The notes under the pieces are model-generated. The model ran no database searches. It was not told the origin of the DNA and saw only the letters and a program-made list of their open reading frames with translations. From contig NZ_BBUZ01000023.1 of NCBI RefSeq assembly GCF_001417735.1, positions 347,570-411,569 of the forward strand: a stretch of DNA of 64,000 nt. The letters run 5' to 3'. Shown piece by piece: positions 1,086 through 15,579 of this stretch (position 1 is the stretch's first letter; each line of letters begins with the position of its first letter). This stretch comes from Streptomyces sp. NBRC 110028 (GTDB taxonomy: Bacteria; Actinomycetota; Actinomycetes; Streptomycetales; Streptomycetaceae). Both the position numbers and the translations under genes were made by a program.

Positions 1086-2135
1086 ATGTCTGACACGAAT
1101 GGTGGCACCGACGTCGCGTCGAGTGACCCCGCAGCCGATGCCGCGGCCGTCTTCGACCTGCTGATCGGCTTGGTTCGCGCCCAGGTCCTGAGGGGTGTGG
1201 CGGCGCTGCACATCGCCGATCACCTCTCCGACGGAGCCTTGACGGCCGGGGAAGTGGCCGAGCGTGAGGGAAGTCATCCGCAGGCCACGTACCGACTGAT
1301 GCGCGCCGCCTCGTCGTTGGGCCTGCTCAGCCACGAGGGGGAGCAGCGTTTCGCTCTCACCGGCCGGGGCCGGCTGCTGCGTTCGGATGTGCCCGGCTCC
1401 CTGCGCTCCTTGGTACTGGCCCAGACCGGCTCGGCGCACTGGCGGTCCTGGGGCCACTTCCCCGAGGCCGTGCGGCAAGGGGAGAGCCAGACCAAGCAGG
1501 CGCTGGGGATGGACGTCTTCGAGTATTTCGGGCAGCCGGAGAACGCCGAGGAGGCGGCTCTCTTCGCTCAGGCGATGGGCGACATGTCCAGCCTGGTGAC
1601 GCAGGGCGCCGTGGCCGCGGTCTCCACCGCCGGTGTGTCCACCGTTGTCGACGTCGGCGGTTCGAACGGTGATTTCGTCCTGGCGCTGATGGAGGCGAAC
1701 CCCCAGCTCAACGGGCAGGTCCTCGATCTGGCTCACGTCGTCGACGGCGCACGCGCCGAGGCCGAGAAGCGTGGTCTGTCCGACCGGTTCTCCACGGTGG
1801 CGGGCGACTTCTTCGTGGAGGTTCCCCCGGCGGACCTCCACCTGCTGAAGACGATCCTGCACGACTGGGACGACGCCCAGTGCACGACCATCCTGCGGCA
1901 TTGCAGGGACGCCGTGAACGAGGGGGGACGCGCGCTGGTCGTCGAGATGGTCATCGGCGAGATCGGTCAGCCCGACGCGGCCGCCCTGTCCGACATGGCC
2001 ATGCTGACCATGACGAACGGCATGGAACGCGACCTGGACGCGTTCGACGCCCTCTTCTCGGCCTCGGGGTGGCGCCGGTCGAAGACGTACCCCGTGGGCG
2101 GCGGGTACTTCGGCATGGAGCTCGTCGCCATCTGA
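1086..2135 (+). CDS. SAM-dependent O-methyltransferase (class II, dimerisation-domain type)
   Basis: The 349-aa protein has the layout of actinobacterial small-molecule O-methyltransferases. An N-terminal helical dimerisation/winged-helix domain (about residues 20-100) is followed by a Rossmann SAM-binding domain. Motif I is VVDVGGSNGDF (about 185-195) and the acidic motif is near VAGDFF. The segment LLKTILHDWDD (about 257-267) carries the His-Asp region that supplies the catalytic base in plant and polyketide O-methyltransferases. The substrate is probably a phenol or hydroxyl of a secondary metabolite, but it cannot be read from sequence. The gene stands alone, divergent from the AraC-type regulator and closed by a strong hairpin. 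It starts at ATG within a less GC-rich leader. Confidence 0.9.
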   Translation: MSDTNGGTDVASSDPAADAAAVFDLLIGLVRAQVLRGVAALHIADHLSDGALTAGEVAEREGSHPQATYRLMRAASSLGLLSHEGEQRFALTGRGRLLRSDVPGSLRSLVLAQTGSAHWRSWGHFPEAVRQGESQTKQALGMDVFEYFGQPENAEEAALFAQAMGDMSSLVTQGAVAAVSTAGVSTVVDVGGSNGDFVLALMEANPQLNGQVLDLAHVVDGARAEAEKRGLSDRFSTVAGDFFVEVPPADLHLLKTILHDWDDAQCTTILRHCRDAVNEGGRALVVEMVIGEIGQPDAAALSDMAMLTMTNGMERDLDAFDALFSASGWRRSKTYPVGGGYFGMELVAI

Positions 2136-2155
2136 CGCCCCCACGCGCGGATACT

Positions 2156-2188
2156 CTCGCCGGTGGCCCGTGACGGGCCACCGGCGAG
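2156..2188. terminator. Strong hairpin terminator after the methyltransferase gene
   Basis: A perfect 15-bp stem (CTCGCCGGTGGCCCG pairing with its complement at 2174-2188) closes a 3-base loop. It lies 20 bp past the methyltransferase stop, between two convergent genes, and so could stop transcription from both sides. There is no clear T tract, as is usual in Streptomyces. Confidence 0.8.
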
Positions 2189-2230
2189 CCGCGTGTCGCG
2201 CCCCCGTACGTCGCGGGGTCTTCGCGCGGG

Positions 2231-2521
2231 TCAATGACTCCAGGAGACCATTCCGTCCGCGGCGACCAAGGCGGCCAGGACGGCGAGATCGGTGACGCCG
2301 AGTGCCATGCCGAACCAGGCTCGTCCTCGCCGTGACGTGCCGCGGCACAGGGCCAAGGTGGCCAGCACCATGGCGATGGGGCCGAGGAAGATGTTCGCCA
2401 CCAGGAGACCCGGGAGGCCGAGCATGAAGGACGCGACAGCCATGTCGTCGGCGTCCCGGACACCGGTTTTCTTCGTGGTCGTACCTGTCGGGCCGGGCTT
2501 TACCGGGACGGTCGACCGCAT
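2231..2521 (-). CDS. Small DUF4190-like membrane protein
   Basis: This is a 96-aa protein with a short polar N-terminus (about 30 residues) and two hydrophobic segments. The first, FMLGLPGLLVANIFLGPIAM, and the second, LAVLAALVAADG, flank a glycine/arginine-rich loop. That arrangement matches the DUF4190 small membrane family, whose function is unknown. I chose the ATG of MRSTVPVK because AAGGAG lies 9 bases upstream; an upstream in-frame ATG at 2542 is less likely. It is the third gene of a likely operon with the MMPL exporter and another small membrane protein, and starts just after the latter's stop codon. Confidence 0.7.
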   Translation of the reverse strand: MRSTVPVKPGPTGTTTKKTGVRDADDMAVASFMLGLPGLLVANIFLGPIAMVLATLALCRGTSRRGRAWFGMALGVTDLAVLAALVAADGMVSWSH

Positions 2522-2522
2522 G

Positions 2523-2687
2523 TCAGGAATCTCCTTCGCCACGTCCGGAGAGGCGTTCTCGCACCGTGAAGACGACCAGCCAGGCGATGATCAGTGAGCC
2601 GGCGACCAGGCTGACGGTGACCGGGATATGGGCGACGGCGCCCACGAAGACCCCGAAGAAGAGCAGCGCGAAGACAATCGGCACCAT
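2523..2687 (-). CDS. 54-aa membrane protein in the MMPL exporter operon
   Basis: The short ORF starts MVPIVFALLFFGVFVGA and encodes two predicted membrane helices (about residues 3-20 and 24-43) with a charged tail rich in Arg and Glu. It lies 20 bp downstream of the MMPL stop and ends one base before the next gene's start codon, so translational coupling is likely. I recognise no named family. A role as an accessory subunit of the exporter is inference from position only. A longer upstream in-frame reading (to 2801) would overlap the MMPL gene and is not favoured. Confidence 0.6.
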   Translation of the reverse strand: MVPIVFALLFFGVFVGAVAHIPVTVSLVAGSLIIAWLVVFTVRERLSGRGEGDS

Positions 2688-2707
2688 GGTCTGCCTCGTT
2701 CCACTTC

Positions 2708-5086
2708 TCACCGCATGGCGGTTTCTCGTTCGGGCTGCGGGTCGGCGCTCGGGGCCGCCGGTTCCTGGGGCCGGGGGGCCGGGCGGCGTCCGGGGAGCCA
2801 CCAGTTCCAGCGGCCCATGAGACGCATGGACGCCGGCACGAGCAGGAGTCGCACGAGGGTGGCGTCGAGGATGATGGCGACGGCCATGCCGAACCCGAGT
2901 TGCTGGATGGGGACGATGCCGGCGAATCCGAAGGCCCCGAAGACGGCGACCATCAGCAGTGCGGCGCCTGAGATCAGGGGGGCGGTGCGGGTGAGACCGC
3001 GGGCCACGGACTCCGTGTTGTCCCCGGTCGCCAGGTATTCTTCGCGGACCCGGTCGAGGAGGAAGACCTCGTAGTCGGTACTGAGGCTGAACAGCAGCGC
3101 CAGCAACAGCACGGGGACGAAGTTCTGCAGGTAGTTGGTCTGCTCGAAGTTCAGCAGGTCGGTACCCATGCCGCGCTGGAAGACGAGTACGAGGACACCG
3201 TAGGTCGCGGCGATCGACAGCAGGTTCATGGCGATGGCCTTCAGCGGCAGCAGGAGCGACCGGAAGGTCAGCAGGAGTACGACGTACACCGCGGCCAGCA
3301 TCACCATGATGACGATGGGCAGGCCATCCTGGATGACGTCGTTGGCGTCGAGGCCTTCGGCCGTTTCGCCGCCGATCACGGCGTCCAGTGAAGCGGGGAG
3401 CTTGTCCGCCTCGTCCTGGACGCGGTGCAGCAGACTCCGCGCGGCATCACTGGATGCCTTGGTGTCCGGGACGACCTCGAAGACGACGGTCCGGTTGTCG
3501 CCGGCGACGTAGTGGCGGATCGTGTCGTGGGCGTCGTCGGGCAGCCGGTTCATGACGGGGTCGGCGAGGGCCGTGAAGGGGGCCTTGGGGCTGACCGCCT
3601 TCAGCGCGGGCAGGGCCGAGTCGACGCGGTCGACATGCGGCAGCTCCTCCAGGCGGTTGCTGAACCCGGTCAGCTCCTGGGCCTGCGCCGATGTCTCCAG
3701 GGGGCTCTTGGAGGTGATGACCACCTGGAGGGGCGAGGTGGTGCCCACCCCGAACGCGTCCTGTACGTGGTCGTAGCCGACCCGGACCTGTGAGGTGCCC
3801 GGGAGGATACGGGCGTCGGGGGAGAACGTGCGCAGCTGCGCGGCCGGCGCGGCCAGTGCGAGCAGCGCGATGCTCGTCGCACCGAGGAAGAGCACCGGGC
3901 GTGCCATGACCTTCAGGGCGATGCGGTACCAGCGGCTGGACTCCTCGCCTGCCACCGCGCTCGCCGCGCCCGCGTCCGCGTCCGGCCGGCGGCGGGGAAG
4001 GCGTATGCGGCCGGCGTTGATCCGGTTTCCCAGGATGTGCAGCAGGACCGGGAGGAAGACGACCGCCGTCAGCACGGAGAAGGCGACGACCACGGTGGCG
4101 CCGAGGGCGAGGGAGAAGATGACGTTGAGATCGATGAGGAACAGCGTGCACATCGCGAGGACGATGGTCACGCCGGAGGCGATGACGGTGTGCCCGGAGG
4201 TGCGCAGGGTGGCGGCGACGGCGGTTTCGACGCTCTGCCCCTTGGCGAGTTGCTCCTTGAACCGGGTGATCATGAAGAGGGAGTAGTCCACTCCGACGCC
4301 CAGCCCCAGCATGGTGGCCGCGTTCTCCACGAACACCGACAGTTCGTAGTGCTGGGAGATCGGTGCCAGCAGGCCGAGCGTGAAGACGATGGCGGAAACG
4401 CCCACCGCGAGCGAGACCAGGGCCGCGGCGACGCTGCGGAAGAGGAGCAGCAGGATCACGATGATCAGGGGCATCGTGATCAGCTCTGCCTTGGTCAGGC
4501 CCTCCTGGCTGAGGGTGTTGACCTCGCCCCAGAAGGAGGAGGGGCTCACCAGGGAGACCTCAAGTCCCTTGGCCTCGAAGCGGTCCGTCAGGTCCTCCTG
4601 GACCTTGGGGAGTTCGCGGCGGGCGGCGCCGTCGTCGAGGTCGAGGGCCAGCGAGTCGGTGACGGTCCGGTGGTCGTCGCCGGCGTACGGGGACCTGTTC
4701 TCGGCATCGAGCGTGGTCCATCCGCTGACGTCCGTGACCTTCAGCGTCTTGTCCCCCTGGACGTAGCGGGTGACGTCCAGGGCCCGTTCCTCGAATCGGG
4801 GGCTGTCGGTCTTGTGTGCCTTGTCGTGAATGACAAGGGTGACCGTGGTCTTGCCCCGCCCCTTGAATCCGTGTTCGAGCTGGCGGGCGGCCTTGTCCGA
4901 GTCGGACCCGGACACGTACCAGCCTCCCCCGCTCAGCGAGTCGGCGATCGACGAGGCGCCGAGTCCGCTGACGGCCAGGGCCACCAGCCACAGCGCCAGC
5001 AGCGGCCAGCGCGCCTTGCCGATCGCCCGGGAGATTCGGGCCGCGAACCCGCCGGTGAGCGGCGGAGGTGAGGTGTGCGGAGTCAT
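2708..5086 (-). CDS. MMPL/RND-family exporter
   Basis: The 792-aa integral membrane protein has the duplicated RND/MMPL layout: a membrane segment near residues 27-48, a large extracytoplasmic loop, and five to six helices (about 200-370). A second loop and a second helix group (about 590-760) follow. Characteristic pieces include GVGVDYSLFMITRF in the first half and LSTDYEVFLLDRVREE in the second; their Asp residues are typical proton-relay positions. Actinobacterial MMPL proteins export lipids or hydrophobic antibiotics using the proton gradient. The gene heads an operon with two small membrane proteins and is divergent from a TetR gene, a usual arrangement for substrate-induced efflux. Confidence 0.92.
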   Translation of the reverse strand: MTPHTSPPPLTGGFAARISRAIGKARWPLLALWLVALAVSGLGASSIADSLSGGGWYVSGSDSDKAARQLEHGFKGRGKTTVTLVIHDKAHKTDSPRFEERALDVTRYVQGDKTLKVTDVSGWTTLDAENRSPYAGDDHRTVTDSLALDLDDGAARRELPKVQEDLTDRFEAKGLEVSLVSPSSFWGEVNTLSQEGLTKAELITMPLIIVILLLLFRSVAAALVSLAVGVSAIVFTLGLLAPISQHYELSVFVENAATMLGLGVGVDYSLFMITRFKEQLAKGQSVETAVAATLRTSGHTVIASGVTIVLAMCTLFLIDLNVIFSLALGATVVVAFSVLTAVVFLPVLLHILGNRINAGRIRLPRRRPDADAGAASAVAGEESSRWYRIALKVMARPVLFLGATSIALLALAAPAAQLRTFSPDARILPGTSQVRVGYDHVQDAFGVGTTSPLQVVITSKSPLETSAQAQELTGFSNRLEELPHVDRVDSALPALKAVSPKAPFTALADPVMNRLPDDAHDTIRHYVAGDNRTVVFEVVPDTKASSDAARSLLHRVQDEADKLPASLDAVIGGETAEGLDANDVIQDGLPIVIMVMLAAVYVVLLLTFRSLLLPLKAIAMNLLSIAATYGVLVLVFQRGMGTDLLNFEQTNYLQNFVPVLLLALLFSLSTDYEVFLLDRVREEYLATGDNTESVARGLTRTAPLISGAALLMVAVFGAFGFAGIVPIQQLGFGMAVAIILDATLVRLLLVPASMRLMGRWNWWLPGRRPAPRPQEPAAPSADPQPERETAMR

Positions 5087-5131
5087 ATGAGGCCTTACGG
5101 TGGAGGATCTGAGGAGAACGCTGGATAATGA

Positions 5132-5180
5132 CTGACCCCGAGTCTTTGACCGACCCCGAGTCGGCGACTCTCGGTCGGTT
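5132..5180. promoter_or_regulatory. TetR operator between the MMPL operon and its regulator
   Basis: An imperfect palindrome at 5148-5180 has arms GACCGACCCCGAGTC and GACTCTCGGTCGGTT around a 3-base spacer, with 13 of 15 positions complementary. A third half-site, ACTGACCCCGAGTC, precedes it at 5131-5144. The sites lie immediately upstream of the TetR start at 5199 and cover the divergent promoter region, so repression of both genes is the natural reading. Confidence 0.75.
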
Positions 5181-5198
5181 AGTATTCTTGGAGGTCAT

Positions 5199-5819
5199 AT
5201 GGGAGTCAAGTCTCGGCGCGCCGAGTACGCAGCACTGACACGTGCCGCCTTGCTCGACGCGGCCGCGGAGTTCTTCGCCGAGAAGGGTTTCGACGTCACG
5301 TCCATCGACGAGATCGCCACCGAGGCGCGTGTGAGCAAGGGGGCCGTCTACCACCACTTCGCCGACAAACGGGCCATTTTCGACGAGGTCTTCCAAGTGA
5401 GCCAGGCGGAGGTTCTGGCGCACGTCAGAAAGGCGATCACCACGGCGAGCGGCGACGAGGACGACCGGCAGCCGTGGCTGGTCGCCGTGACCGCCGTACA
5501 GGACTTCCTGGACAGCTACGTCACCGACGCGCGCAAGCGGTCGCTGCTGCGGCAGTCCGCCAGCGTGCTCGGCGTGCGCCGTTGCCGGGAGATCGACGAC
5601 GAACTGGCGCTTCCCCTGGTGCTGGGGCTCCTGGAGGAGCTGCGGGCCCGTGGAGAACTCAAGGATGTGTCGATCAAGATGGCGGGCACAGTGATCTTCG
5701 GGACGCTGTGCGAGGCGGCGACCACGCTGGCCCTTGCCGACGACCACGAAAAGGCCGGCCGTGAGGCATCCCAGGTCGTCAGCCACATGCTGTCCGGCCT
5801 GCTCAAGAATGCCTCTTGA
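5199..5819 (+). CDS. TetR-family repressor of the divergent MMPL operon
   Basis: The 206-aa protein has a canonical TetR HTH in residues 12-58 (TRAALLDAAAEFFAEKGF, then EARVSKGAVYHHFADK) and a helical ligand-binding C-terminal domain of about 145 residues. The ATG is preceded by TTGGAGGTCAT, a good ribosome site. It is divergent from the MMPL exporter with 112 bp between, and that gap holds the palindromic operator. Its likely role is ligand-relieved repression of the exporter and of itself; the ligand is unknown. A 15-bp hairpin follows the stop. Confidence 0.9.
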   Translation: MGVKSRRAEYAALTRAALLDAAAEFFAEKGFDVTSIDEIATEARVSKGAVYHHFADKRAIFDEVFQVSQAEVLAHVRKAITTASGDEDDRQPWLVAVTAVQDFLDSYVTDARKRSLLRQSASVLGVRRCREIDDELALPLVLGLLEELRARGELKDVSIKMAGTVIFGTLCEAATTLALADDHEKAGREASQVVSHMLSGLLKNAS

Positions 5820-5860
5820 CGGCACGAAGGGATGCCGGCGGGAAAGCGGCGCGCACAACG

Positions 5861-5900
5861 GCGGGCCCGTAACCCCAGCGACTCAGGGTTACGGGCCCGC
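5861..5900. terminator. Hairpin terminator after the tetR gene
   Basis: A perfect 15-bp stem, GCGGGCCCGTAACCC with its complement at 5886-5900, encloses a 10-base loop. It is 42 bp after the TetR stop and between convergent transcription units, so it can act in both directions. Confidence 0.8.
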
Positions 5901-6038
5901 GATGACGGGAATCGGCCGACGTTCCCGGCCGTGCTGATCACACGGAACGGGAGTTGCCCTGCTCCGGCGACGCGGCGGCGGGTCCGCGGATCGGGTCCAC
6001 CGGGTCCATCGGGTCCATCGGGTCCGGAGACCGGACGG

Positions 6039-6932
6039 TCAGCCGCGCGCCGCCCTGGCGAGCGAGACGAGTTCGCGCAGACCGCCGAGCAGGGTGAAGG
6101 GCCACCGCGCCGCCGCGCTCCACCGCCCCGCGGCGCGGCGCGTGGCCCGGTGCACATCCACCACGACGTGGCGGCGCACGGGTTCCCCGGCGAGGATCTC
6201 GGCTGACATCCGGGCGCTGAGCGCGCCGAACTGCAGCGAGGCGTAGACGAGTTGCGGAACGCTGTAGTCCGTCTCGCCCAGGTGTGCGCGGGCGTTGTCC
6301 AGCATTTCCACCGGGATGAAGCGCACCGGGATCGCCTTGAACAGCAAGGACCACACCATGGCCTGGTCGACCATGGCCGAGGTGATCTTCCCGTCGAACG
6401 GGCGTGCGTGGGGCTTTCGGTAGTCGTAGAACCGGATGTACTGGGTGCCGGCCATGTCGTATCCGGTCAGCACCGGCCGCCCCGCGCGCGCCGCGGCCTC
6501 GTGGAGGCGGTACTTCGCCTGCCACCCTGACCGTTCGGTGACATCGACGCCATCGATGACCACGGCGCACCGGCCGACCAGATCCTGGGCGTTGTCCTCG
6601 GTGACACCGTCCGTCACCACCTCCACGCGGGCGTGCGGGTTGATCTCCGTCACCCGCCTGGCCGCGACCTCGGCCTTGTGCCGGCCGATGTCGGTGTACG
6701 CCGCGTGCTGACGGTTGAGGTTGTTCAGCTCGAACTCGCCGACATCGACCAGGATGAAGTCCTGGACACCGAGGCGGGTGAGGGGTTCCACCGCCGCGCC
6801 CCCGGTGGAACCGCAGCCGGCGATCAGAATCCGCGCCCGGGACAGTTCGTCCTGCGCCCGGTCGGATATGAAACCGCGGTTGCGTTCCGTGAACTCCTGG
6901 TAGAACTCCCGCAGCATGATGTCTTCCGCCAT
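6039..6932 (-). CDS. ThiF/MoeB/E1-like adenylyltransferase
   Basis: The 297-aa protein carries the E1-like nucleotide fold. It has a glycine loop AGCGSTGG (about residues 35-42), the acidic segment LVDVGEFELNNLNRQ (about 56-70) with the Asn/Arg/Gln set that binds ATP-Mg, and IDGVDV further on. ThiF, MoeB and MccB proteins adenylate a C-terminal carboxylate of a protein or peptide. I see no CxxC zinc pairs. The C-terminal half (TGYDMAGTQYIRFYDYRKP onward) is not typical of ThiF, so the substrate is open. The ATG overlaps the upstream stop as TGATG, so it is translationally coupled to the acyltransferase-like gene. It is the last gene of a four-gene operon. Sulfur transfer or peptide modification are both possible. 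Confidence 0.85.
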   Translation of the reverse strand: MAEDIMLREFYQEFTERNRGFISDRAQDELSRARILIAGCGSTGGAAVEPLTRLGVQDFILVDVGEFELNNLNRQHAAYTDIGRHKAEVAARRVTEINPHARVEVVTDGVTEDNAQDLVGRCAVVIDGVDVTERSGWQAKYRLHEAAARAGRPVLTGYDMAGTQYIRFYDYRKPHARPFDGKITSAMVDQAMVWSLLFKAIPVRFIPVEMLDNARAHLGETDYSVPQLVYASLQFGALSARMSAEILAGEPVRRHVVVDVHRATRRAAGRWSAAARWPFTLLGGLRELVSLARAARG

Positions 6933-7945
6933 CAGGCAGCCACCTCTACAGGGATCTCCACGTGTTTGACCGTCCCGGACAGCTCCGCCATGAGCCCCCG
7001 CAGAGCGCGGATCGGCGAGGCATCGGCGACGGCCTGTTCCAGGAGCTTGCCGCGCTTCGCGATTTCGTCGAGCTCCGGGGTCCACGCGCAGAAGGGGAGG
7101 ACCTTCTCGCGCGCGATGTACATGGGGTGCATGAGGTCCCGCCGGCTCAGTGCCGGCGTGGTGCCTGTCAGCAGATGCACATCGAGTCCGAGGAGCACGA
7201 GGTGGCGCAGGGCCACATGCTCTTCCACATCGCCGACCAGCAGCTTGATCGAGCCGCCTGACGCGTGGACGGCCATGGTGATCCCGGCCAGCAGTTCCAG
7301 GGTGATCCGCAGACGCTGCGCCCGATCGGTGACGTCGTGCGCCTGTACGAAACGCTTCACCTCCCTGATCTCGTGCGTGTTCAGCGCCGCCGCGTCGGGC
7401 AGCACGGTCTGCAGGCGCATCGCGTGCGCCTCCTCGCAGGGGAACAGACGGCGGTCCGGGGCGAGCAGTGGGCGCGGCTCGGGGTCCTTGCCGTGGGCGA
7501 GCGCCACATATCCGAGGATCCGGCCGCTGTCCGCGTCCGTGGTGATGACGTGGGTGTCGGCGTCGTGGAACTCCCGGATCGGCTCACAGAACAGTGACTG
7601 CTCGAAGACCACGTCCTCGCTCGCGTACCCCGCCCGCAGGTATCCCGACAGGCGGAACCCGGCCAGCCCCAGAAGGTACCGTTCGGGAATCGACGCGGTG
7701 TGCGCCGCGATGGTGACAAGCCCCCGCCCATGAGCGGACCGGTGTAAGAGCGCGTCGTTCTTCTCCAGCTCCGCGGCCATGCGGTGGTAGCTGAGCCGAC
7801 TGTGCATGCGGAGGATGTCCTGGATGTAGCGGCGCCTCACCTCGTCGGTCAGAAGAGCCGACGCGTGTCCCTCGGGGAGTTCGAGCGGGACACTCCGCGG
7901 GCCGGGCACGGAGGCGGATCCAGCCGTGACCCGATGCTCGTTCAT
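6932..7945 (-). CDS. N-acyltransferase / autoinducer-synthase-like protein (GNAT-like fold, tentative)
   Basis: This is a 337-aa protein of uncertain family. Its central region has the pattern of FeeM-type N-acyl amino acid synthases and acyl-homoserine-lactone synthases. That pattern is an FCEPIREF-type segment, a strand plus acidic turn (THVITTDADSGRILGYVAL), and then HEIREVKRFVQ, resembling their E-(I/V)-(S/R)-R strand. A second half (LRITLELLAGITMAVHASGG and HLVLLGLDVHLLTG) fits the remaining GNAT-like helices. The assignment rests on pattern only. The gene starts one base after the acyl-CoA dehydrogenase stop and overlaps the ThiF start by one base. That linkage suggests it uses or makes an acyl group. 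It could instead be an orphan conserved protein. Confidence 0.6.
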   Translation of the reverse strand: MNEHRVTAGSASVPGPRSVPLELPEGHASALLTDEVRRRYIQDILRMHSRLSYHRMAAELEKNDALLHRSAHGRGLVTIAAHTASIPERYLLGLAGFRLSGYLRAGYASEDVVFEQSLFCEPIREFHDADTHVITTDADSGRILGYVALAHGKDPEPRPLLAPDRRLFPCEEAHAMRLQTVLPDAAALNTHEIREVKRFVQAHDVTDRAQRLRITLELLAGITMAVHASGGSIKLLVGDVEEHVALRHLVLLGLDVHLLTGTTPALSRRDLMHPMYIAREKVLPFCAWTPELDEIAKRGKLLEQAVADASPIRALRGLMAELSGTVKHVEIPVEVAA

Positions 7946-7946
7946 A

Positions 7947-9161
7947 TCAGAAGTCTTCTTCCTCATACAGGGCCTCGGTGATAGCCAGCGCGAGGACCTC
8001 TGGGGTGCCCTCGTAGATACGGGCGCCGAAGGACTCACGCACGAGCTTCTCCATCCCGTACTCGCGCAGGTAACCACGGGCGCCCATCAGCGACATGGCC
8101 TCCTGGGTCACCTCGATGGCGGTGCGGTCGGCGAAGAGCTTCGCCGTGGCCGGCGCGAACACCGGCGCCGGAATCTCGGTGTCGGCGGCCTGAGCCGCCT
8201 GGAGGTACATCAGCCGGGACGCCTCGATCTTGGAGGCCATCTCGGCGAGCTTGCGGGCAGAGAACTGATGCTTGTACAGGGGGATGCCGCCCTGGACGCG
8301 GTCGGCGCACCACTGCTTGGCGATGTCGAAGGCGCCACGGGCGATGCCGGTGGAGAGGGCGGCAACGGTGGCGCGGGCCATGTTCATCTGCTGGATGTTG
8401 ATGAGCATGCCGTTGCCCTCGCCCCCGACGACATTCTCCGCGGGCACGCGGACATTGTCGAAGATCAGCTCGCTTCCGAGGCAGGCGCGGTAGCCCATCT
8501 TGTCGGCGACCGGACCGCGGGTGACGCCGGGAGAGTCGAGCGGGACGATGAACGCGGTGAGTCCGGTGGCGCCGGGGTGTCCTTCGATGTTGGCGTAGAT
8601 GGAGCCGAACTCCGCCACCTTGGCATTGGTGATGAACCGCTTGCGGCCGCTGAGGAGGTAGCTGTCACCGTCCTTCCGGGCCCGCATGACGTCCCGGGCG
8701 TGCTCGGCGTTCTCCGGTATGAGCAGATCGCACCCCGCCTCGTCCTCGGTGATGCCGTTGCAGGCCAGGACCGGCTCGTCGCCGGAGAACAGCGGCAGGA
8801 AGCGGGACTGGAGATTGGTGTCCGCGGACAGCAGGACGGGCGCCTGCCCCAGGAGCGTGGCGCCGAAGATCAGTGCGGTGCCGGCGCAGGCCGCGGCGAT
8901 CTCCTCGAGCGCCACGGCAACGCCGAGGACACCGAGGCCAAGGCCCCCGTACTCCTTGGGGACCACGAGACGCAGCAAACCGGCCTCGTGCCCCTTGCGG
9001 ACCAGCTCCCAGTCGAAGTCCTCCGCCGCGGCGCGGTCGTTGTCCGCGACGCGGGGACGGACCTCCTTCTCGACGAAATCCCGTACGTGCTGACGGAGTT
9101 CCTGGATCTGGAGCGGTTCGGTGAGGAAGTCGACAGGCTCAAGGCCGGCGGTGTTGTTCAT
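7947..9161 (-). CDS. Acyl-CoA dehydrogenase (FAD-dependent)
   Basis: The 404-aa length is typical of the family. The N-terminal helical domain (about residues 15-130), the middle beta domain with ACNGITEDEAGCD and SGRKRFITNA (about 140-180), and the C-terminal helical domain are all present. The catalytic base is the Glu of IYEGTPEV, near residue 385, as in short/medium-chain enzymes. The reaction would be alpha,beta-desaturation of an acyl-CoA or acyl-carrier thioester with FAD. I chose the ATG of MNNTAGLEP; frames reaching further upstream would run into the SCP2 gene. It lies 71 bp after the SCP2-like gene and one base before the acyltransferase-like gene. In this setting it more likely tailors a specialised acyl substrate than serves bulk beta-oxidation. 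Confidence 0.92.
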   Translation of the reverse strand: MNNTAGLEPVDFLTEPLQIQELRQHVRDFVEKEVRPRVADNDRAAAEDFDWELVRKGHEAGLLRLVVPKEYGGLGLGVLGVAVALEEIAAACAGTALIFGATLLGQAPVLLSADTNLQSRFLPLFSGDEPVLACNGITEDEAGCDLLIPENAEHARDVMRARKDGDSYLLSGRKRFITNAKVAEFGSIYANIEGHPGATGLTAFIVPLDSPGVTRGPVADKMGYRACLGSELIFDNVRVPAENVVGGEGNGMLINIQQMNMARATVAALSTGIARGAFDIAKQWCADRVQGGIPLYKHQFSARKLAEMASKIEASRLMYLQAAQAADTEIPAPVFAPATAKLFADRTAIEVTQEAMSLMGARGYLREYGMEKLVRESFGARIYEGTPEVLALAITEALYEEEDF

Positions 9162-9232
9162 GACTCTACGGTGCTCTTTCGTGTTGCCTGGCAGGGGGTT
9201 TTCAAGATCACGTACGGGGCTCCCCGCACGGG

Positions 9233-9622
9233 TCAGACGGGCAGACCTTCCGATGCGGCGATGTCGGGATACTGGTCGAACGCGGGCTGCAGCAGCGGGA
9301 CGAACTCGAGCACCTTGGACACGCTGCCCTTGATACGGACCTTTCCGGTGGCGAGGGCCACAGGCATCAGCAGCTTCCCCAGCCACAGGCTGTGTGCCGT
9401 GTCGCAGCTCATCTTGATGCGGATATTGGCGGGCTGCGAGGGAGCGCCGTCCTGCACCGCGTCCGGCGTGACGGAGAGTTCGATATCCGGTTTCGTCTGG
9501 ATGAGGTGCAGCGTGATACCGGCGTCACGCATCCGCTGGGTGAATGTTTCGTCCTTCAGCAGAAGGCCGAAGAGGTCCGTGAAAATGCGGCGTGCTTGAT
9601 CACTGGATTCAAACACAGGCAT
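9233..9622 (-). CDS. SCP2 sterol/lipid-binding domain protein
   Basis: The 129-aa single-domain protein resembles the SCP2 sterol-transfer fold: an N-terminal helix pair (QARRIFTDLFGLLLKDETF), alternating beta strands (ITLHLIQTKPDIELSV, NIRIKMSCDTAHSLWLG) and the closing segment ATGKVRIKGSVSKVLEFVPL. That last segment matches the G-K-(V/I)-x-(V/I)-x-G end of SCP2 domains. Such domains hold acyl-CoA or sterol-like ligands. The ATG follows GAGGAGACTGTC, a good ribosome site. It is the first gene of the acyl-CoA dehydrogenase/acyltransferase/ThiF operon, and could present a lipid substrate to those enzymes (inference). Confidence 0.82.
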   Translation of the reverse strand: MPVFESSDQARRIFTDLFGLLLKDETFTQRMRDAGITLHLIQTKPDIELSVTPDAVQDGAPSQPANIRIKMSCDTAHSLWLGKLLMPVALATGKVRIKGSVSKVLEFVPLLQPAFDQYPDIAASEGLPV

Positions 9623-10436
9623 GACAGTCTCCTCGTATCGAGATGATGGAATGACGCCCGTGACCGGGCACGCGCGGGAGTGGGCAGGAAGGTGAAAGGG
9701 CGGCGCAGGCCCCTCTTGCTCTGGAACCCGCGGGCAGAACGCGCACAGCGGCCGCCGCGTACAACATTTTTCCGTTTCCCCGATTCCCACTTTCTCCGCA
9801 CCGAGCCCTCCGACTCCCGCGAGGGAGGGGGAGGTCCCCGGGCGGCGACCACCGGTATACCGCATCCGGTCACATACTCATATTCGGTCGCCGACGCTCG
9901 GTCAGTGCGATTGGACCATGGCACCAAGGCCCCGCCGCGTCAAGTTACTTGCTGGTCACACGCCTGAAGCTCAACAGTCGCTCAGATACCGGGCGCAGGA
10001 GCGAAGACGTCGACCCGCCCCCGTCGTCACTCCTGGCACGCAAGACGTACCGGAAGGCCATCAGGTTTCAATTGGGCGCGCACTGAACGCATTTGACGGC
10101 AACGGCAGGCGTGCCGACCCCCTCGCACCGGGACCGGGAGCGGAAACCGGAAAGCGCTTTCCCCCTTGATACCGACCGAGATGGCCGGCTCCAAGCCGGT
10201 CGGATACCACACCGCCGAAAGGCGTTCCCGCGCGCCCGTGAGCCGCGACATGTAGTGAAACCTCTAGTTCGCGGCTGTAGTAAGATCCCTAATCCAAGCC
10301 CCGGTCCCGGCGAGGGCATCCGGGTCGGCGACCGCCGCACCGCACGCGTTTTGAGATGCGCTTCGGCGAGATATGCGCGGCCGGACGCCTCCGAAGGCCA
10401 CGGGGTCATCAAGACCGGACGCCTGAATCCGTGAGT
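9623..10436. other. 814-bp stretch without a supported gene; upstream region of the SCP2 operon
   Basis: No frame on either strand has convincing composition, start or ribosome site. It is less GC-rich in places (around 9760-9790, 9860-9890 and 10240-10310). It holds an inverted repeat, GCCGCGA at 10252-10258 with its complement at 10269-10275, and a small hairpin CCGGCT/AGCCGG near 10183-10200. The promoter of the minus-strand operon must lie here, but no strong -35/-10 pair stands out. I looked for a tRNA or small RNA gene and found none I can support. Confidence 0.5.
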
Positions 10437-11330
10437 TCACCCCGGCCCCTTACGGGCACCGAGCAGATGGCGCGTCGACTCCGCGGCGCGGACCGCCGCG
10501 TCCCCACAACAGTTGTTGAACAGGACGTGAACTTCGTCGGCATGGCCGGCCATGCCGCGCAGGCGCGGAGCCCATTCCTCCAGTTCCCCGGGCGCGTAGG
10601 TGTGACGGAAGCGCTCCTCCTTGGTGCCGGTGCCCCAGGCATTGTTGCGGCCGTGGAAGCGGACTACCGCCAGGTGGGGTGAGGTGACGGGGGTGACCGG
10701 GGGGATCGAGGTGGGGAGGGTCTGGACCACGTCCACGGCTACGGCGGACATGCCCCAGCCCCTGAGCATCGCCTCGGTCTCGGCTCGCTCGCCGTCCTGC
10801 CACCAGCCGGGGTGGCGGAACTCCACGGCGACCGGCCACCCGGCCGTACGGCGTGCGCATTGGGCCAGGAACGCCTTCGACCGTGCGTCGCCGGGGGCGA
10901 ACCAGGGCGGGAACTGGAAGAGGAGGGTGCCGAGGCGCCCAGCCTTCTTCAGCGGTTCGAGCGCTCCGGTGAAGCGTTGCCACACCTCGTCCAGCAGCGC
11001 CGGGTCGATGGCCCGGTGCCCTGCCCGGCAGCCACCGGACAGGGCGGGACGCAGGTCGGCGGGCAGGGCGTTCGGGGTCGTCGGGTGGCCGGTGAGCAGG
11101 GAGAACGCCTTGACGTCGAAGCGGAAACCGTCCGGGGTGCGCTCGGCCCACAGGGCGCTGTTGCGGGTGCTGGGCAGCGCGTAGTACGTGGCGTCGACCT
11201 CGACCACGGGGAACTGGGCGGCGTAATACCGCAGTCTGCCCTCGGCATCGCGCTGCCCCGGCGGGTACCAGCCGCTGGACAGCAGCGCGCGATCCGTCCA
11301 TGAACAGGTGCCGACCAGAATCTCACCCAT
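10437..11330 (-). CDS. DUF72 (YecE-like) family protein
   Basis: The 297-aa protein begins MGEILVGTCSWTD and continues with YYAAQFPVVEVDATYYALPS, GFRFDVKAFSLLTGHP and VAVEFRHPGWW. These are the conserved blocks of the DUF72/YecE TIM-barrel family. The acidic and aromatic residues around the barrel opening are kept, but no enzymatic activity has been established for the family. I chose the ATG at the conserved MGE; the longer frame adds 12 non-conserved residues. It is divergent from the GTG-started hypothetical gene at 11535 and appears monocistronic. Confidence 0.88.
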   Translation of the reverse strand: MGEILVGTCSWTDRALLSSGWYPPGQRDAEGRLRYYAAQFPVVEVDATYYALPSTRNSALWAERTPDGFRFDVKAFSLLTGHPTTPNALPADLRPALSGGCRAGHRAIDPALLDEVWQRFTGALEPLKKAGRLGTLLFQFPPWFAPGDARSKAFLAQCARRTAGWPVAVEFRHPGWWQDGERAETEAMLRGWGMSAVAVDVVQTLPTSIPPVTPVTSPHLAVVRFHGRNNAWGTGTKEERFRHTYAPGELEEWAPRLRGMAGHADEVHVLFNNCCGDAAVRAAESTRHLLGARKGPG

Positions 11331-11534
11331 GCCCTGCCGACTACCCCAGGTCGGGGTCGACGGCACCGCCGGGTCCGAACCTCACGCGTCGCGTACGTTT
11401 CGACCGCGACCACGAAGTCCCGCTGGGCTTCCCACCGACCGGGAACGCTGGCGCCGTACCGTGACACATGGTCAAGGGCTGACAGTGGCGTTGAAGGACA
11501 CACGTGCGGCGCCGCACACCTTCCGGGAGGACCT

Positions 11535-12356
11535 GTGTTTCCGCCTACCGTCATTGTGGGTCTGCACGGAACCCTCAAGCGCGATGCGTGGTTCGACCAG
11601 GTCGTGGAGCAGGACGACGAACGTTCCGTTGAGGAGGATCTTCTCGGGCTCGCGATTGATCGGGCTGGTTCCTACGGCTGGCAGTCCCTGACGAGCCGGC
11701 TTCACGAGGGTGGAAAGGTCATCGCCCGCCATGAGCCCACTTCCTGGGCCCAGGAGGAGGTCGGCGGCGACTGGACGCAGGATGGCAGGGTCCATCAGCT
11801 GGCCTGGCTGCGGGCTGGAGTCCTTACCGATCCTCCGCGCCTCGGCCTGCCCGTCCGGCCGATCGCTTTGGTGTTGGCCGAGACGCTGGCTCGCGTGGGC
11901 ACGGTGACGTTCACCGGCCTGCACGCCCTGCTGCCGCTGCGGGCGGCCGAACGCAACACGGCTTTCCACCAGACCGAGTTGGCACCGTGGTTCGGCCTGG
12001 CCGATCCGGATGCCCGGTACGAGGTGGTGGTCACCGTCTCCTGCCACCCCCAGGAGGGCGGGGCGGGCGAGCGGGATGTGATGGCCATCTGTGAAGCGGT
12101 GCGGGAGATGGCGCAGGGGGCGGTGGATGTCTCCGTCTCCGTGGCGGGAGGCGATCTGCCGGGGTTGGATCTCGATCTCGACCGTGTGCCGCACACCGAG
12201 GGGATGCGTGAGGTGATGCGGTTGAGCTGCCGTACGCGGGAGTGGTCACCGGACATCGCGGTGTGGCTGGTGGAGATGGTCGCTGACGGTTCGCGTGGGG
12301 CGGGGCGGTCCGTGCCGGCCGTGGTGACGGTCTCGTTGGCATCTGCCCCGACCTAG
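11535..12356 (+). CDS. Conserved hypothetical protein (273 aa)
   Basis: I do not recognise a family. The GTG start has GGGAGG four bases upstream, and the plus-frame composition is consistently protein-like while the opposite frames are Arg/Ser-rich shadows. The protein has no signal peptide or membrane segment. It contains acidic and aliphatic blocks (LGLPVRPIALVLAETLARVG, DARYEVVVTVSCHPQEGG, EAVREMAQGAVDVSVSVAGG) suggesting a soluble alpha/beta fold. It is divergent from the DUF72 gene and followed, after 150 bp, by a strong hairpin. No function is proposed. Confidence 0.65.
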   Translation: MFPPTVIVGLHGTLKRDAWFDQVVEQDDERSVEEDLLGLAIDRAGSYGWQSLTSRLHEGGKVIARHEPTSWAQEEVGGDWTQDGRVHQLAWLRAGVLTDPPRLGLPVRPIALVLAETLARVGTVTFTGLHALLPLRAAERNTAFHQTELAPWFGLADPDARYEVVVTVSCHPQEGGAGERDVMAICEAVREMAQGAVDVSVSVAGGDLPGLDLDLDRVPHTEGMREVMRLSCRTREWSPDIAVWLVEMVADGSRGAGRSVPAVVTVSLASAPT

Positions 12357-12506
12357 GGGCAAGGGCGCGTTTCGCACTGGCTCCGTCGGGCCGGCTGCGG
12401 CATTGGGAGCGCGCCCATATCCCCTTCACTCCCTCACGAACGACGGAGGAAGATCACGCATTCCTGTGCAGCGACGTCAACTTCTCCTGAGCCGCCGCCC
12501 GTCGCG

Positions 12507-12535
12507 CCCCGCCGGAGCCATCGCCTCCGGCGGGG
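12507..12535. terminator. Hairpin between the 11535 gene and the lipoprotein gene
   Basis: A perfect 11-bp stem (CCCCGCCGGAG with CTCCGGCGGGG) encloses a 7-base loop and is followed by TTCG. It lies 75 bp before the lipoprotein start, so it can terminate the upstream unit or act in the lipoprotein leader. Confidence 0.65.
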
Positions 12536-12609
12536 TTCGACGATTCGGCGGTCTCGTCCGGCGTATCCGGGGAACTAGGTATCCCCAGTCGTTGAGAGGA
12601 GTTGGAGAC

Positions 12610-13464
12610 ATGACTCACTTGGCCGGCGGGATACGGGCGGGCGCGATCGGTGCCGTGGGGCTCCTCGCGTGCGGCGTGCTGACCGCGTGTGGGAGCGACG
12701 GCGACTCCGGGGGCAAGGACCGGAAGACCTCGTCGGCGGCGGCGAGCGGCGGTGGAAGCGGCAACGGCGGCACGACCGCCGTCCGCACCGCGTACCGCAA
12801 GACCGCCGAGGAGGAAACGGCGCGGATGACCCTCCGGACGGAGACGTCGGCCGCCGGGAAGTCGGCGGTCGCGCGGGGTGAGGGGGCCATCGACCTCGAG
12901 GACGGCGACAGCACCATGACCATCAGCGCCGGTGGTCAGAAGGTCGAGCAGCGCGTCGTCGACAAGGTGGTCTACCAGAAGCTTCCCCCCAAGCAGCGCG
13001 CGCAGGTGCCCGGTGACAAGCCGTGGATCAAGATCGATCTGAAGAAGGCGGCCGCCGAGCAGAACAGCGGCAGCAGCAACCAGATCAACGACCCCGCGCA
13101 GTCCGCGTCGTACGCCAAGGGCATCACCGACCGGAACACCGAGAAGGTCGGCACGGGCACGGTCGACGGTGTGAAGACCACCCGCTACCGGGTCACCGTC
13201 GACATCGACAAGCTCTCCGGCGCCGCCGCGTTGAAGCGCCAGGTCGGCCCCACCGTCCCGATGGACGTCTGGCTGGACGACCAGGGCCGCATCCGCCGCC
13301 AGCAGATCACCATGAACATCAAGCCCACCGATCAGCCGAAGGGGACGGCCGCCCCGAAGAAGCTGACGGTGCGCACGCTGATCGAGTTCTCCGACTTCGG
13401 CACCGAGGTCGACCCCAAGGCCCCGCCGGCGGGGCGGACCACCGACATGACGGGCAAACGGTGA
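12610..13464 (+). CDS. Secreted lipoprotein, LppX/LprAFG-like
   Basis: The 284-aa precursor has a lipobox, GVLTAC (Cys about residue 24), after a short basic N-terminus and hydrophobic core, then a Ser/Gly-rich spacer. The mature part reads as a beta-rich domain with ARMTLRTETS, DGDSTMTISAGG, RVVDKVVYQKLP, and TVDGVKTTRYRVTVD followed by MDVWLDDQGRIRRQQITM. These are features of the LppX/LprAFG lipoprotein superfamily, which binds lipids at the outer face of the membrane. The ATG follows AGAGGAGTTGGAGAC. The ligand is unknown. Confidence 0.85.
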   Translation: MTHLAGGIRAGAIGAVGLLACGVLTACGSDGDSGGKDRKTSSAAASGGGSGNGGTTAVRTAYRKTAEEETARMTLRTETSAAGKSAVARGEGAIDLEDGDSTMTISAGGQKVEQRVVDKVVYQKLPPKQRAQVPGDKPWIKIDLKKAAAEQNSGSSNQINDPAQSASYAKGITDRNTEKVGTGTVDGVKTTRYRVTVDIDKLSGAAALKRQVGPTVPMDVWLDDQGRIRRQQITMNIKPTDQPKGTAAPKKLTVRTLIEFSDFGTEVDPKAPPAGRTTDMTGKR

Positions 13465-13571
13465 GCGAGCATCCTCCTTGAAAATGGCCTTTTCCGCCGC
13501 ACAGGGCGGCGGGCGCGTCACCTCATCGAGATCTCAACCGGGGTGCTCCTCGAAAACGCAGGCCGAGCAGA

Positions 13572-15245: not shown

Positions 15246-15579
15246 AGGCCAATCCAATCGCACACAGCCGACTCCGGTCCGCCTTCTACCTCCGTACGCC
15301 CCTGGGCGATAGGCTGCCAGTCCGCTCCATGCTCTGGCGAATGCCGGTCAGGCTTTGCCCAACGCCTCGCGCACGTCATGTGTGAACGACTGCCATGACG
15401 CGAGCTGCTTGACAGGCCCTTCGCGAGTTGAACTCCCCAAGCTCAACGTCGCTTGAGCCGCCTCAACCGACCCACAAGATGCGACAATGGCTCGGCGCCT
15501 GATACCCGCGAGCCAAATCAAGTTGAGGGTACCCTCTGCATCTCCTGCAAGAGAATTATTTCAGCCAAGGAGCGTTTGC
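15246..15579. other. 334-bp divergent intergenic region
   Basis: No gene is supported here. The region has lower GC near 15430-15560 and a 12-base palindrome GAGGGTACCCTC at 15525-15536, close to the start of the plus-strand hydrolase gene and a possible regulator site. Nothing else stands out. Confidence 0.45.

Follow-up and report, generated by a model that had tools for sequence, protein, structure and literature searches.

The question raised by this locus is what a compact set of four genes, coding for an SCP2-like protein, an acyl-CoA dehydrogenase (ACAD), a 337-aa protein and a ThiF-family enzyme, accomplishes in Streptomyces sp. NBRC 110028. The window, as used here, is the whole stretch of 64,000 nucleotides that was analyzed. 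According to its ORF list, the four genes are arranged in this order on the minus strand and span 9622-6039 with an intergenic spacing of 71, 1 and -1 bases, which is the packing described in the original prediction, with the last two genes sharing a single base. The operon and its neighbors comprise the following features:

2708..5086, minus strand: MMPL-family transporter, 792 aa (PF03176, 272.5 bits), probable exporter of the product
5149..5179, unstranded: 31-bp imperfect palindrome between the TetR and MMPL genes (15-nt arms, 87% complementary)
5199..5819, plus strand: TetR regulator (PF00440, 66 bits; PF21351, 53 bits), convergent with the operon and divergent from the MMPL gene
6039..6932, minus strand: ThiF-family adenylating enzyme, LitM-like, 297 aa (PF00899, 112.5 bits), probable N-acyl amino acid cyclase
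6932..7945, minus strand: 337-aa protein, LitL-like, probable N-acyl amino acid synthase (conserved family, weak LuxI-profile alignment, litL deletion)
7947..9161, minus strand: ACAD-family flavoprotein, LitJ-like, 404 aa (PF00441/02771/02770)
9233..9622, minus strand: SCP2-like lipid-binding protein, LitI-like, 129 aa (PF02036, 19.0 bits)

The order SCP2-like, ACAD, 337-aa (LitL-like) and ThiF gene is kept in 20 of 21 loci (20 genomes, the window and two lipothrenin-like loci included), with L113 (G461) counted as the same locus as L002, whose layout it shares. The remaining locus contains all four genes in a rearranged form, and in four of the order-keeping loci the first gene is weakly SCP2-like. 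Since this recurrence is more than chance, the four genes are a conserved unit, and the concern that they might rarely be adjacent in other genomes was not borne out. About one in 25 Streptomyces species retains the set. The surrounding genes vary among the groups of loci: at a minimum of 80 aa for gene calling at the compared loci, no gene beyond the core is common to all groups, and an MFS-type exporter occurs in most. An amidase-type gene follows the ThiF gene in three loci (L027, L028, L032), and a nitroreductase gene (PF00881) stands beside the SCP2 gene in L022, L026 and L112. An analogy of this gene to TyzC was considered and dropped, since the copy in L022 does not resemble TrzS (E 0.28).

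The original prediction knew of no described pathway with this set. This is contradicted by published pathways that combine an N-acyltransferase, a ThiF-family enzyme and a flavoprotein to form oxazolones (PMC10404671, PMC12856293) and by the lipothrenin (lit) cluster of Streptomyces aureus LU18118. In that cluster litI, litJ, litL and litM (products of 124, 421, 311 and 297 aa, close in size to those of the window) occur in the same order as in the window, except that litJ and litL are separated by the small litK (PMC10616846); litK has no counterpart in the window. Homology of the window to lit was measured via the lit-like locus L019, the lit cluster itself (ON169987) being compared by gene order and size. 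By these two measures L019 and L020 match the cluster from litC to litQ (litK was not called), and the domains of L019 (AMP-binding, RNR-like, ACP, GDSL, GMC, AurF, DUF4873, DLH) fit as well. The identity between window and L019 amounts to 66% for the ACAD, 51% for the ThiF, 35% for the 337-aa protein and 26% for the SCP2-like protein. In their surroundings L019 and L020 carry the lit-like FAAL, ACP, GDSL, GMC, AurF and DUF4873 gene clusters, whereas the window, L002 and L018 carry TetR and MMPL genes. Furthermore, a scan of ten proteins of the window, from 1086 to 15263, detected no FAAL, ACP or AurF N-oxygenase, and the L019/L020 clusters c18, c20 and c23 are absent from the window's first 20 kb, L002 and L018.

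Genetic data for lit come from the same study (PMC10616846). Deletion of litL abolishes the lipothrenins, deletion of litM leaves the L-Thr form only, and deletion of the ACAD gene litJ has minor effects only, with the acyl chain unchanged. The authors assign dehydration/epimerization to LitM; the products described in the text available carry one amino acid each, some of them with an N-acetylcysteine adduct, and an oxazolone is not named among them. The small fatty-acyl product that had been proposed for the operon is in line with its lit, tyz and trz relatives, for which small fatty-acyl amino acids are published.

The proposed adenylation of a carboxylate by the ThiF protein finds support in its active site: the MoeB-numbered residues R14, N70, R73, K86 and D130 are kept in 21/21 core ThiFs, and position 62 is D in 18 of them, the other three having E. 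In TrzS, cyclization requires Asp217, which belongs to the ATP site of the ThiF part and presumably corresponds to D130. Zinc CxxC pairs, of which E. coli MoeB and ThiF have two each, are found in none of the 21 core ThiFs, and all of them lack a Cys at the MoeB 187 position. Six ThiFs located with an N-acyltransferase or a nitroreductase (Trz-type) scored 83-124 bits with a profile of the core ThiFs, compared with 73.5 for TcdA, 62.4 for E. coli ThiF and 61.0 for E. coli MoeB; the two best scores belong to L063 and L058, both adjoining LuxI-family proteins. By score, the window-type ThiF is nearer to the oxazolone-type ThiFs than to MoeB/ThiF. In the tree, where TcdA and several other rows form long branches, the core ThiFs fall outside the MoeB/ThiF/MoeZ side, whereas the unclassified ThiF of L060 lies on the MoeB side in spite of 85.9 bits with the core profile. 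For this tree L056 and L047 were omitted as duplicates and one match of <160 residues was dropped; the identical L103 and L050 were both kept. A P-loop Ser is present in 21/21 core ThiFs and 22/22 Trz-linked rows (two rows being the same gene); it was dropped as a marker of these ThiFs, as those of L172, L058 and L063 have Gly.

The 337-aa protein has no relative in Pfam, NCBIfam, PDB sequences, plasmids or viral contigs, and its family falls outside every Pfam and NCBIfam model searched. A pattern-based scan of contigs of 84,980 species' genomes, less sensitive than the profile searches for this family, revealed a single close relative, in S. catenulae. In the phylum-wide profile search its own genome was the sole match (1/396), and in genus g11, which its Rv1355c-family matches suggest to be mycobacterial, we regard the short hits in 15 of 118 genomes (E 0.02-0.6) as chance. 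PF00765, PF13444 and PF21926 matched none of the 16 family members at E up to 10, and the FeeM profile check suggested beforehand did not point to this gene: PF21926, searched against the own genome, matched elsewhere and under the cut-off. Comparison with the LuxI profile resulted in a weak colinear alignment over 189 columns (score 27.0 versus 21.4 for the best of 86 nulls, probability 5.8%). With the roles exchanged it was weak again (20.0 versus a best null of 19.6, TrzA set aside, probability 0.8%), and TrzA, itself a null, reached 25.9, above the 337-aa family. In a first null set of 88 profiles LuxI ranked first for the family (22.5 versus 21.4), and a comparison started from the LuxI profile gave 24.9 for TrzA, which is one of the nulls, 21.2 for the family and 19.7 for the next null. 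Against a profile of 27 TrzA homologues, with TrzA standing in for TyzA, the probability was 0.1% (hhalign). AlphaFold models of the full and the trimmed protein, based on two-row alignments (window and L002), had a mean pLDDT of 31.2 and 31.1, too low for a search by fold. With respect to the LuxI alignment and the litL deletion, the protein is probably an N-acyl amino acid synthase.

The ACAD contains all three domains of its family (C-terminal 123, N-terminal 85, middle 64 bits). Glu384 of the IYEGT motif, presumably the catalytic residue, is invariant (15/15), and the enzyme carries an 8-residue insertion after TExxAGxD compared with 7p98 and 5ol2. The SCP2-like protein stays under the Pfam cut-off (19.0 versus 21.3 bits), and PF02036 is recognized at E up to 1 in 15 of the 16 homologues aligned with it, the best at 1.8e-7. 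As for the neighbors, the TetR gene has the same position in L002 and L018, where the MMPL gene likewise adjoins the operon and similar palindromes occur; another MMPL gene lies within the L031 cluster. The 31-bp palindrome is likely a TetR operator; it has no second copy in the window when up to 3 mismatches are allowed, and 100 shuffles yielded a mean of 0.00. The MMPL protein probably exports the pathway product.

On balance we lean, with moderate confidence, toward a lipothrenin-core-type pathway. The data establish the gene set with its conservation, the site residues and relatives of the ThiF, and the correspondence of the core to litI/J/L/M in order and size; for the amino acid, the acyl chain and its transfer, the oxazolone intermediate, the ACAD and SCP2 roles and the export we infer the following steps. 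The 337-aa protein would N-acylate an amino acid, with CoA or ACP as the source of the acyl chain, and the ThiF enzyme would adenylate the free carboxylate of the N-acyl amino acid with ATP. Attack of the amide oxygen on the adenylated carboxylate would then close a 5(4H)-oxazolone (azlactone). Since the ring makes the alpha-hydrogen acidic, such a compound can epimerize, lose a beta-substituent or be oxidized, which would explain the litM-dependent epimerization, the dehydrobutyrine and the alpha-thiol adducts. In analogy to the nitroreductase-type oxidase of oxazolone pathways, the ACAD may desaturate the alpha,beta bond; the greasy intermediate would be carried by the SCP2-like protein, and the neighboring MMPL protein, probably under TetR control, would export the product. 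Several observations count against this reading: no oxazolone among the lit products described, the minor effects of the litJ deletion, the weak LuxI alignment of the 337-aa protein and its lack of TrzA and FeeM matches, the long branches of the ThiF tree, the position of L060 and a flavoprotein of another type than in the oxazolone pathways.

A smaller but real chance has to be given to a lit-type pathway without free oxazolone, in which the ThiF enzyme adenylates for epimerization/dehydration only and the ACAD alters the fatty chain by acyl-CoA alpha,beta-unsaturation. The role proposed for LitM by the lipothrenin authors and the ordinary acyl-CoA-dehydrogenase domains of the ACAD would suit it; the acyl chain, however, is unchanged by the litJ deletion, and epimerization, dehydrobutyrine and alpha-thiol adducts would find their simplest joint explanation in an acidified alpha-carbon. 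That the activated carboxylate instead condenses with a second amine or alcohol, giving an amide, an ester or the lipopeptide of the original prediction, seems unlikely: the PDB matches of the ThiF to MccB (34 bits) and PaaA (27 bits), both ThiF-fold enzymes acting on peptide substrates, speak for it, whereas the lack of an extra gene common to all locus groups, save the MFS-type exporter in most, and the single amino acid of the lit products described speak against it.

We would rate it slightly lower still that the operon degrades an N-acyl amino acid or lipid. ACAD and SCP2 are known from lipid breakdown, and the amidase-type gene in three loci would fit, but the core is accompanied by exporters (MFS or MMPL) and regulators. 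A sulfur-carrier or ubiquitin-like E1 system of the ThiF/MoeB type is highly improbable in view of the missing CxxC pairs and Cys 187, the position in the tree and an operon without room for a carrier gene, even though the enzyme belongs to PF00899 and gene calling with a minimum of 80 aa could have overlooked a carrier gene of ThiS size elsewhere than in the operon. Against degradation, moreover, lit is biosynthetic by deletion (PMC10616846).

Within the oxazolone reading, a more specific proposal is put forward tentatively: the ACAD-fold enzyme would work on the ThiF-made azlactone and not on a CoA or carrier-protein thioester, and LitM would be an oxazolone cyclase rather than a dehydratase or epimerase as such. 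The ring would acidify the alpha-hydrogen as a thioester would, and the ACAD would desaturate it. If this is true, a second oxazolone/dehydroamino-lipid pathway has been assembled separately in Streptomyces. It would use an ACAD in place of the mycobacterial nitroreductase, draw on exchangeable enzymes for tailoring (AurF, TauD, amidase) and export its product through MMPL. How the amide is formed and by what mechanism epimerization proceeds were left open by the lipothrenin study, the only paper on this core that was found (PMC10616846); linking the lit ThiF to oxazolone-type cyclases would provide one mechanism for three odd product features. It also predicts a related Streptomyces lipid family, whose clusters differ mainly in the post-ThiF gene and the exporter.

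Among known systems, the LuxI/FeeM N-acyl synthases resemble the 337-aa protein in a weak alignment that covers the G-x-I-x-G stretch and E-x-x-R-F, whereas the latter is ~100 residues longer than LuxI. TcdA, the tRNA threonylcarbamoyladenosine cyclase, is a ThiF fold acting on the carboxylate of an N-acylated threonine and, like the core ThiFs, lacks CxxC; it reaches 73.5 bits with their profile, below the N-acyltransferase-linked ThiFs, and differs in its tRNA substrate. Paulomycin Pau30/Pau39, a ThiF and an ACAD in one cluster, was rejected as a relative, Pau30 being described as MoeZ-like and beside a cysteine desulfurase (PMC4802897). In tyzABC and trzAS (mycobacteria, Rhodococcus) and oxzAB (Pseudoalteromonas rubra), the neighbors of the N-acyltransferase gene are genes for a ThiF-family enzyme and a flavoprotein. 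In these systems the flavoprotein is a nitroreductase-superfamily oxidase, whereas the window has an ACAD and an additional SCP2-like gene. An MMPL neighbor is common to the window and tyz, which is flanked by mmpL9 in M. tuberculosis, and the four-gene core looks related to the oxazolone lipid pathways of mycobacteria.

ORF analysis reproduced the positions and spacing claimed for the four genes in the original prediction and placed all of them on the minus strand, and Pfam agreed with its identities for ThiF and the acyl-CoA-dehydrogenase family protein (ACAD). The SCP2-like and ACAD genes were separated by 71 bases and the ACAD and 337-aa genes by 1 base, while the 337-aa and ThiF genes overlapped by one base:

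9622-9233, minus strand: SCP2-like ORF, PF02036 just under cut-off
9161-7947, minus strand: ACAD ORF, Pfam match
7945-6932, minus strand: ORF of the 337-aa protein, nothing notable in Pfam, NCBIfam or PDB sequences
6932-6039, minus strand: ThiF ORF, Pfam match

The window copy missed the PF02036 cut-off narrowly, but 15 of 16 homologues matched the model (E up to 1). The genome holding the window comprises 8.9 Mb; Streptomyces catenulae carries a closely related operon.

In profile searches, the 337-aa family occurred in 15 genomes out of 392 at genus level, in 12 out of 293 at order level (all from the same genus, one of nine genera) and in 1 out of 396 at phylum level, the window's own. With S. 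catenulae, which was met twice, counted a single time, the pooled searches yielded 21 distinct loci from 20 genomes; their layouts were derived from tblastn together with genes called along stretches no longer than 20 kb. The synteny comparison suggested in the original prediction revealed the order SCP2-ACAD-337aa-ThiF in 16 loci, plus four (L030, L114, L115 and L116) in which the gene preceding ACAD was a divergent SCP2-like gene with 12.6-23.2 bits against the SCP2 family profile. Locus L031 has all four genes in a rearranged core (L031:74-10337): its very divergent 337-aa homologue (24-27% identity) lies ~6 kb from ThiF, with SnoaL-like, MMPL (1038 aa) and amine oxidase genes between them, and an alpha/beta hydrolase gene also belongs to this stretch.

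Flanking genes were similar inside locus groups and different between groups; therefore, wider shared synteny is not the reason for the conservation of the core. The window, the S. catenulae locus L002 and L018 share a convergent TetR gene and an MMPL transporter, and L019 and L020 have a lipothrenin-like setting. In seven loci (L021-L026 and L112) an MFS exporter directly follows ThiF, followed by a LuxR-type response regulator (L021 domains were scanned, and the MFS domain also in L025). An amidase-type gene follows ThiF in L027, L028 and L032 (PF01425 scanned in L027), and a TauD-type dioxygenase in L029, L030, L114, L115 and L116 (PF02668 scanned in L029). The gene after ThiF would accordingly vary in the manner of a tailoring step. 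Several further neighbours were observed. A PF00881 nitroreductase gene lies divergent from the SCP2 gene at L022:6152-7297 (63.9 bits) and likewise in L026 and L112; the L022 copy had no TrzS likeness, and the gene is possibly an unrelated neighbour. A second MMPL-like gene (L116:1529, 750 aa, cluster c10 of the window MMPL) is found several kb before the TauD-type core. Near the window's MMPL gene an O-methyltransferase gene (PF00891) occupies 1086-2135, and its protein cluster had no member in the other loci whose genes were clustered.

With respect to regulation, one candidate element was detected in the window:

5149-5179: imperfect palindrome of 31 bp in the intergenic space of the divergent TetR/MMPL pair, arms 87% complementary

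It was the sole copy in the window with up to 3 mismatches allowed, and similar palindromes occupy the equivalent place in L002 and L018. Since no copy was found upstream of SCP2 in the window, TetR control of the operon itself is without sequence support.

Among titles, abstracts and passages of the open-licence PMC literature, the paper on the lipothrenin (lit) cluster of Streptomyces aureus LU18118 was the only account of such a core, which does not imply absence in print. The match of L019 to lit (ON169987) is one of gene order, size and domains; the expected domains were present in the scanned L019 genes.

Genes of the lit cluster (passages of PMC10616846) and L019 counterparts by order and size
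litC, MFS: 496 aa; L019 477 aa
litD, FAAL: 573 aa; L019 572 aa
litE: 326 aa; L019 325 aa
litF, ACP: 88 aa; L019 87 aa
litG: 228 aa; L019 227 aa
litH, GMC: 539 aa; L019 528 aa
litI, hypothetical: 124 aa; L019 123 aa
litJ, ACAD: 421 aa; L019 420 aa
litK: 85 aa; L019 gap of ~257 bases, no gene called, litK would fit
litL, hypothetical: 311 aa; L019 315 aa
litM, ThiF: 297 aa; L019 300 aa
litN, N-oxygenase: 311 aa; L019 310 aa
litO: 110 aa; L019 96 aa
litP: 256 aa; L019 206 aa
litQ, TetR: 205 aa; L019 207 aa

According to passages of the same paper, lipothrenins were gone after deletion of litL, the L-Thr form alone remained after deletion of litM, and deletion of litJ had minor effects; amide formation could not be assigned with confidence by its authors, who suggested a dehydration role for LitM (PMC10616846). 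These passages leave litI without annotation (PMC10616846); by homology its product is predicted to be SCP2-like, and the SCP2-like protein of L019 shares 26% identity with the window copy.

In a 60-row tree the 21 core ThiFs formed one side of a branch with support 98/93. A further branch (99/97) put the core together with 22 Trz-linked rows (two of them identical), L058, L063, L051 and TcdA and separated it from L060, the MoeZ-type rows and the E. coli proteins MoeB and ThiF; given the long branches of TcdA and several other rows, this is moderate evidence. Residue counts indicated that the core ThiFs retain the ATP-site residues and miss the zinc and thioester cysteines.

Scores against the core-ThiF profile (bits)
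L063: 123.9
L058: 111.1
L172: 108.9
Trz-type: 83.1-88.9
L060: 85.9
TcdA: 73.5
L051: 67.6
Other MoeZ-type: 48.9-65.2
E. coli ThiF: 62.4
E. coli MoeB: 61.0

The best NCBIfam match of the window ThiF was PRK08223 (99 bits, far under the cut-off of 266). The L172 ThiF belongs to this family (464 bits) and has a P450 on one side, itself preceded by a TrzA-like gene, and an Acg/Rv1355c-like nitroreductase on the other. This row (L172:6642-10806; TrzA-like, cytochrome P450, stand-alone PRK08223-family ThiF, Acg-like nitroreductase; genus g11, taken as mycobacterial) is an oxazolone-type operon with a P450 inserted. The ThiFs nearest by profile, L063 and L058 from two other genomes of the phylum, each adjoin a LuxI-family protein (the direct neighbour on the same strand in L063, in convergent orientation in L058), and this LuxI-family pair matched the LuxI profile with a probability of 98.2%. 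Consequently, ThiFs like the window's occur alongside N-acyl synthases.

All 16 aligned sequences of the 337-aa family share H132, Y146, E195, K197 and R198, and nearly all share G141 and I143. The best alignment to the LuxI profile covered 189 columns and scored 27.0, with none of the 86 unrelated or reversed profiles above 21.4; with the roles exchanged, the score was 20.0 versus a null of 19.6, and the hhalign probabilities were only 5.8% and 0.8%. The same alignment pairs G-x-I-x-G and E-x-K-R-F of the 337-aa protein with the G-x-x-x-G-like and E-x-x-R-F positions of LuxI. AlphaFold gave no usable model of the protein, and a FeeM model did not find its gene. From its context, namely the essential litL and the LuxI neighbours of the sister ThiFs, the 337-aa protein is likely an acyltransferase.

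The window ACAD has ordinary ACAD domains, and the structures nearest by sequence include short-chain ACADs. All 15 aligned copies retain the Glu of IYEGT and carry 8 extra residues after TExxAGxD compared with 7p98 and 5ol2; this stretch comprised 26 residues in 19 of 24 ACAD rows (two of them repeats of one locus), the remaining 5 not being measurable by the pattern. ACAD was the most conserved of the four proteins (48-93% identity to the window copy), which argues for a real function, the weak litJ phenotype notwithstanding.

In terms of azlactone chemistry, a LitM-type ThiF would make an oxazolone, and this one intermediate would account for the altered C-alpha stereochemistry, for dehydrobutyrine as a side product and for the alpha-thiol adducts. 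None of the three was detected without litM, as stated in passages of the lit paper (PMC10616846). For a side chain without leaving group, desaturation by ACAD might yield a dehydro-oxazolone or, after hydrolysis, an N-acyl dehydroamino acid.

Passages on the published acyl-oxazolone pathways describe acylation of an amino acid by TyzA/TrzA/OxzA, ATP-driven cyclisation by the ThiF domains of TyzB/TrzS/OxzB and desaturation by a nitroreductase-type oxidase (PMC10404671, PMC12856293, PMC12479983; the OxzAB facts are second-hand from these papers). Oxazolones are labile compounds, for which a mild extraction with butanol-methanol has been used (PMC12856293). At L049:1471-4302 a TrzA-like acyltransferase, a ThiF and a nitroreductase-like part are fused in one 943-aa protein. 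Furthermore, tyz is flanked by mmpL9 (passages of PMC10404671), which parallels the MMPL gene of the window.
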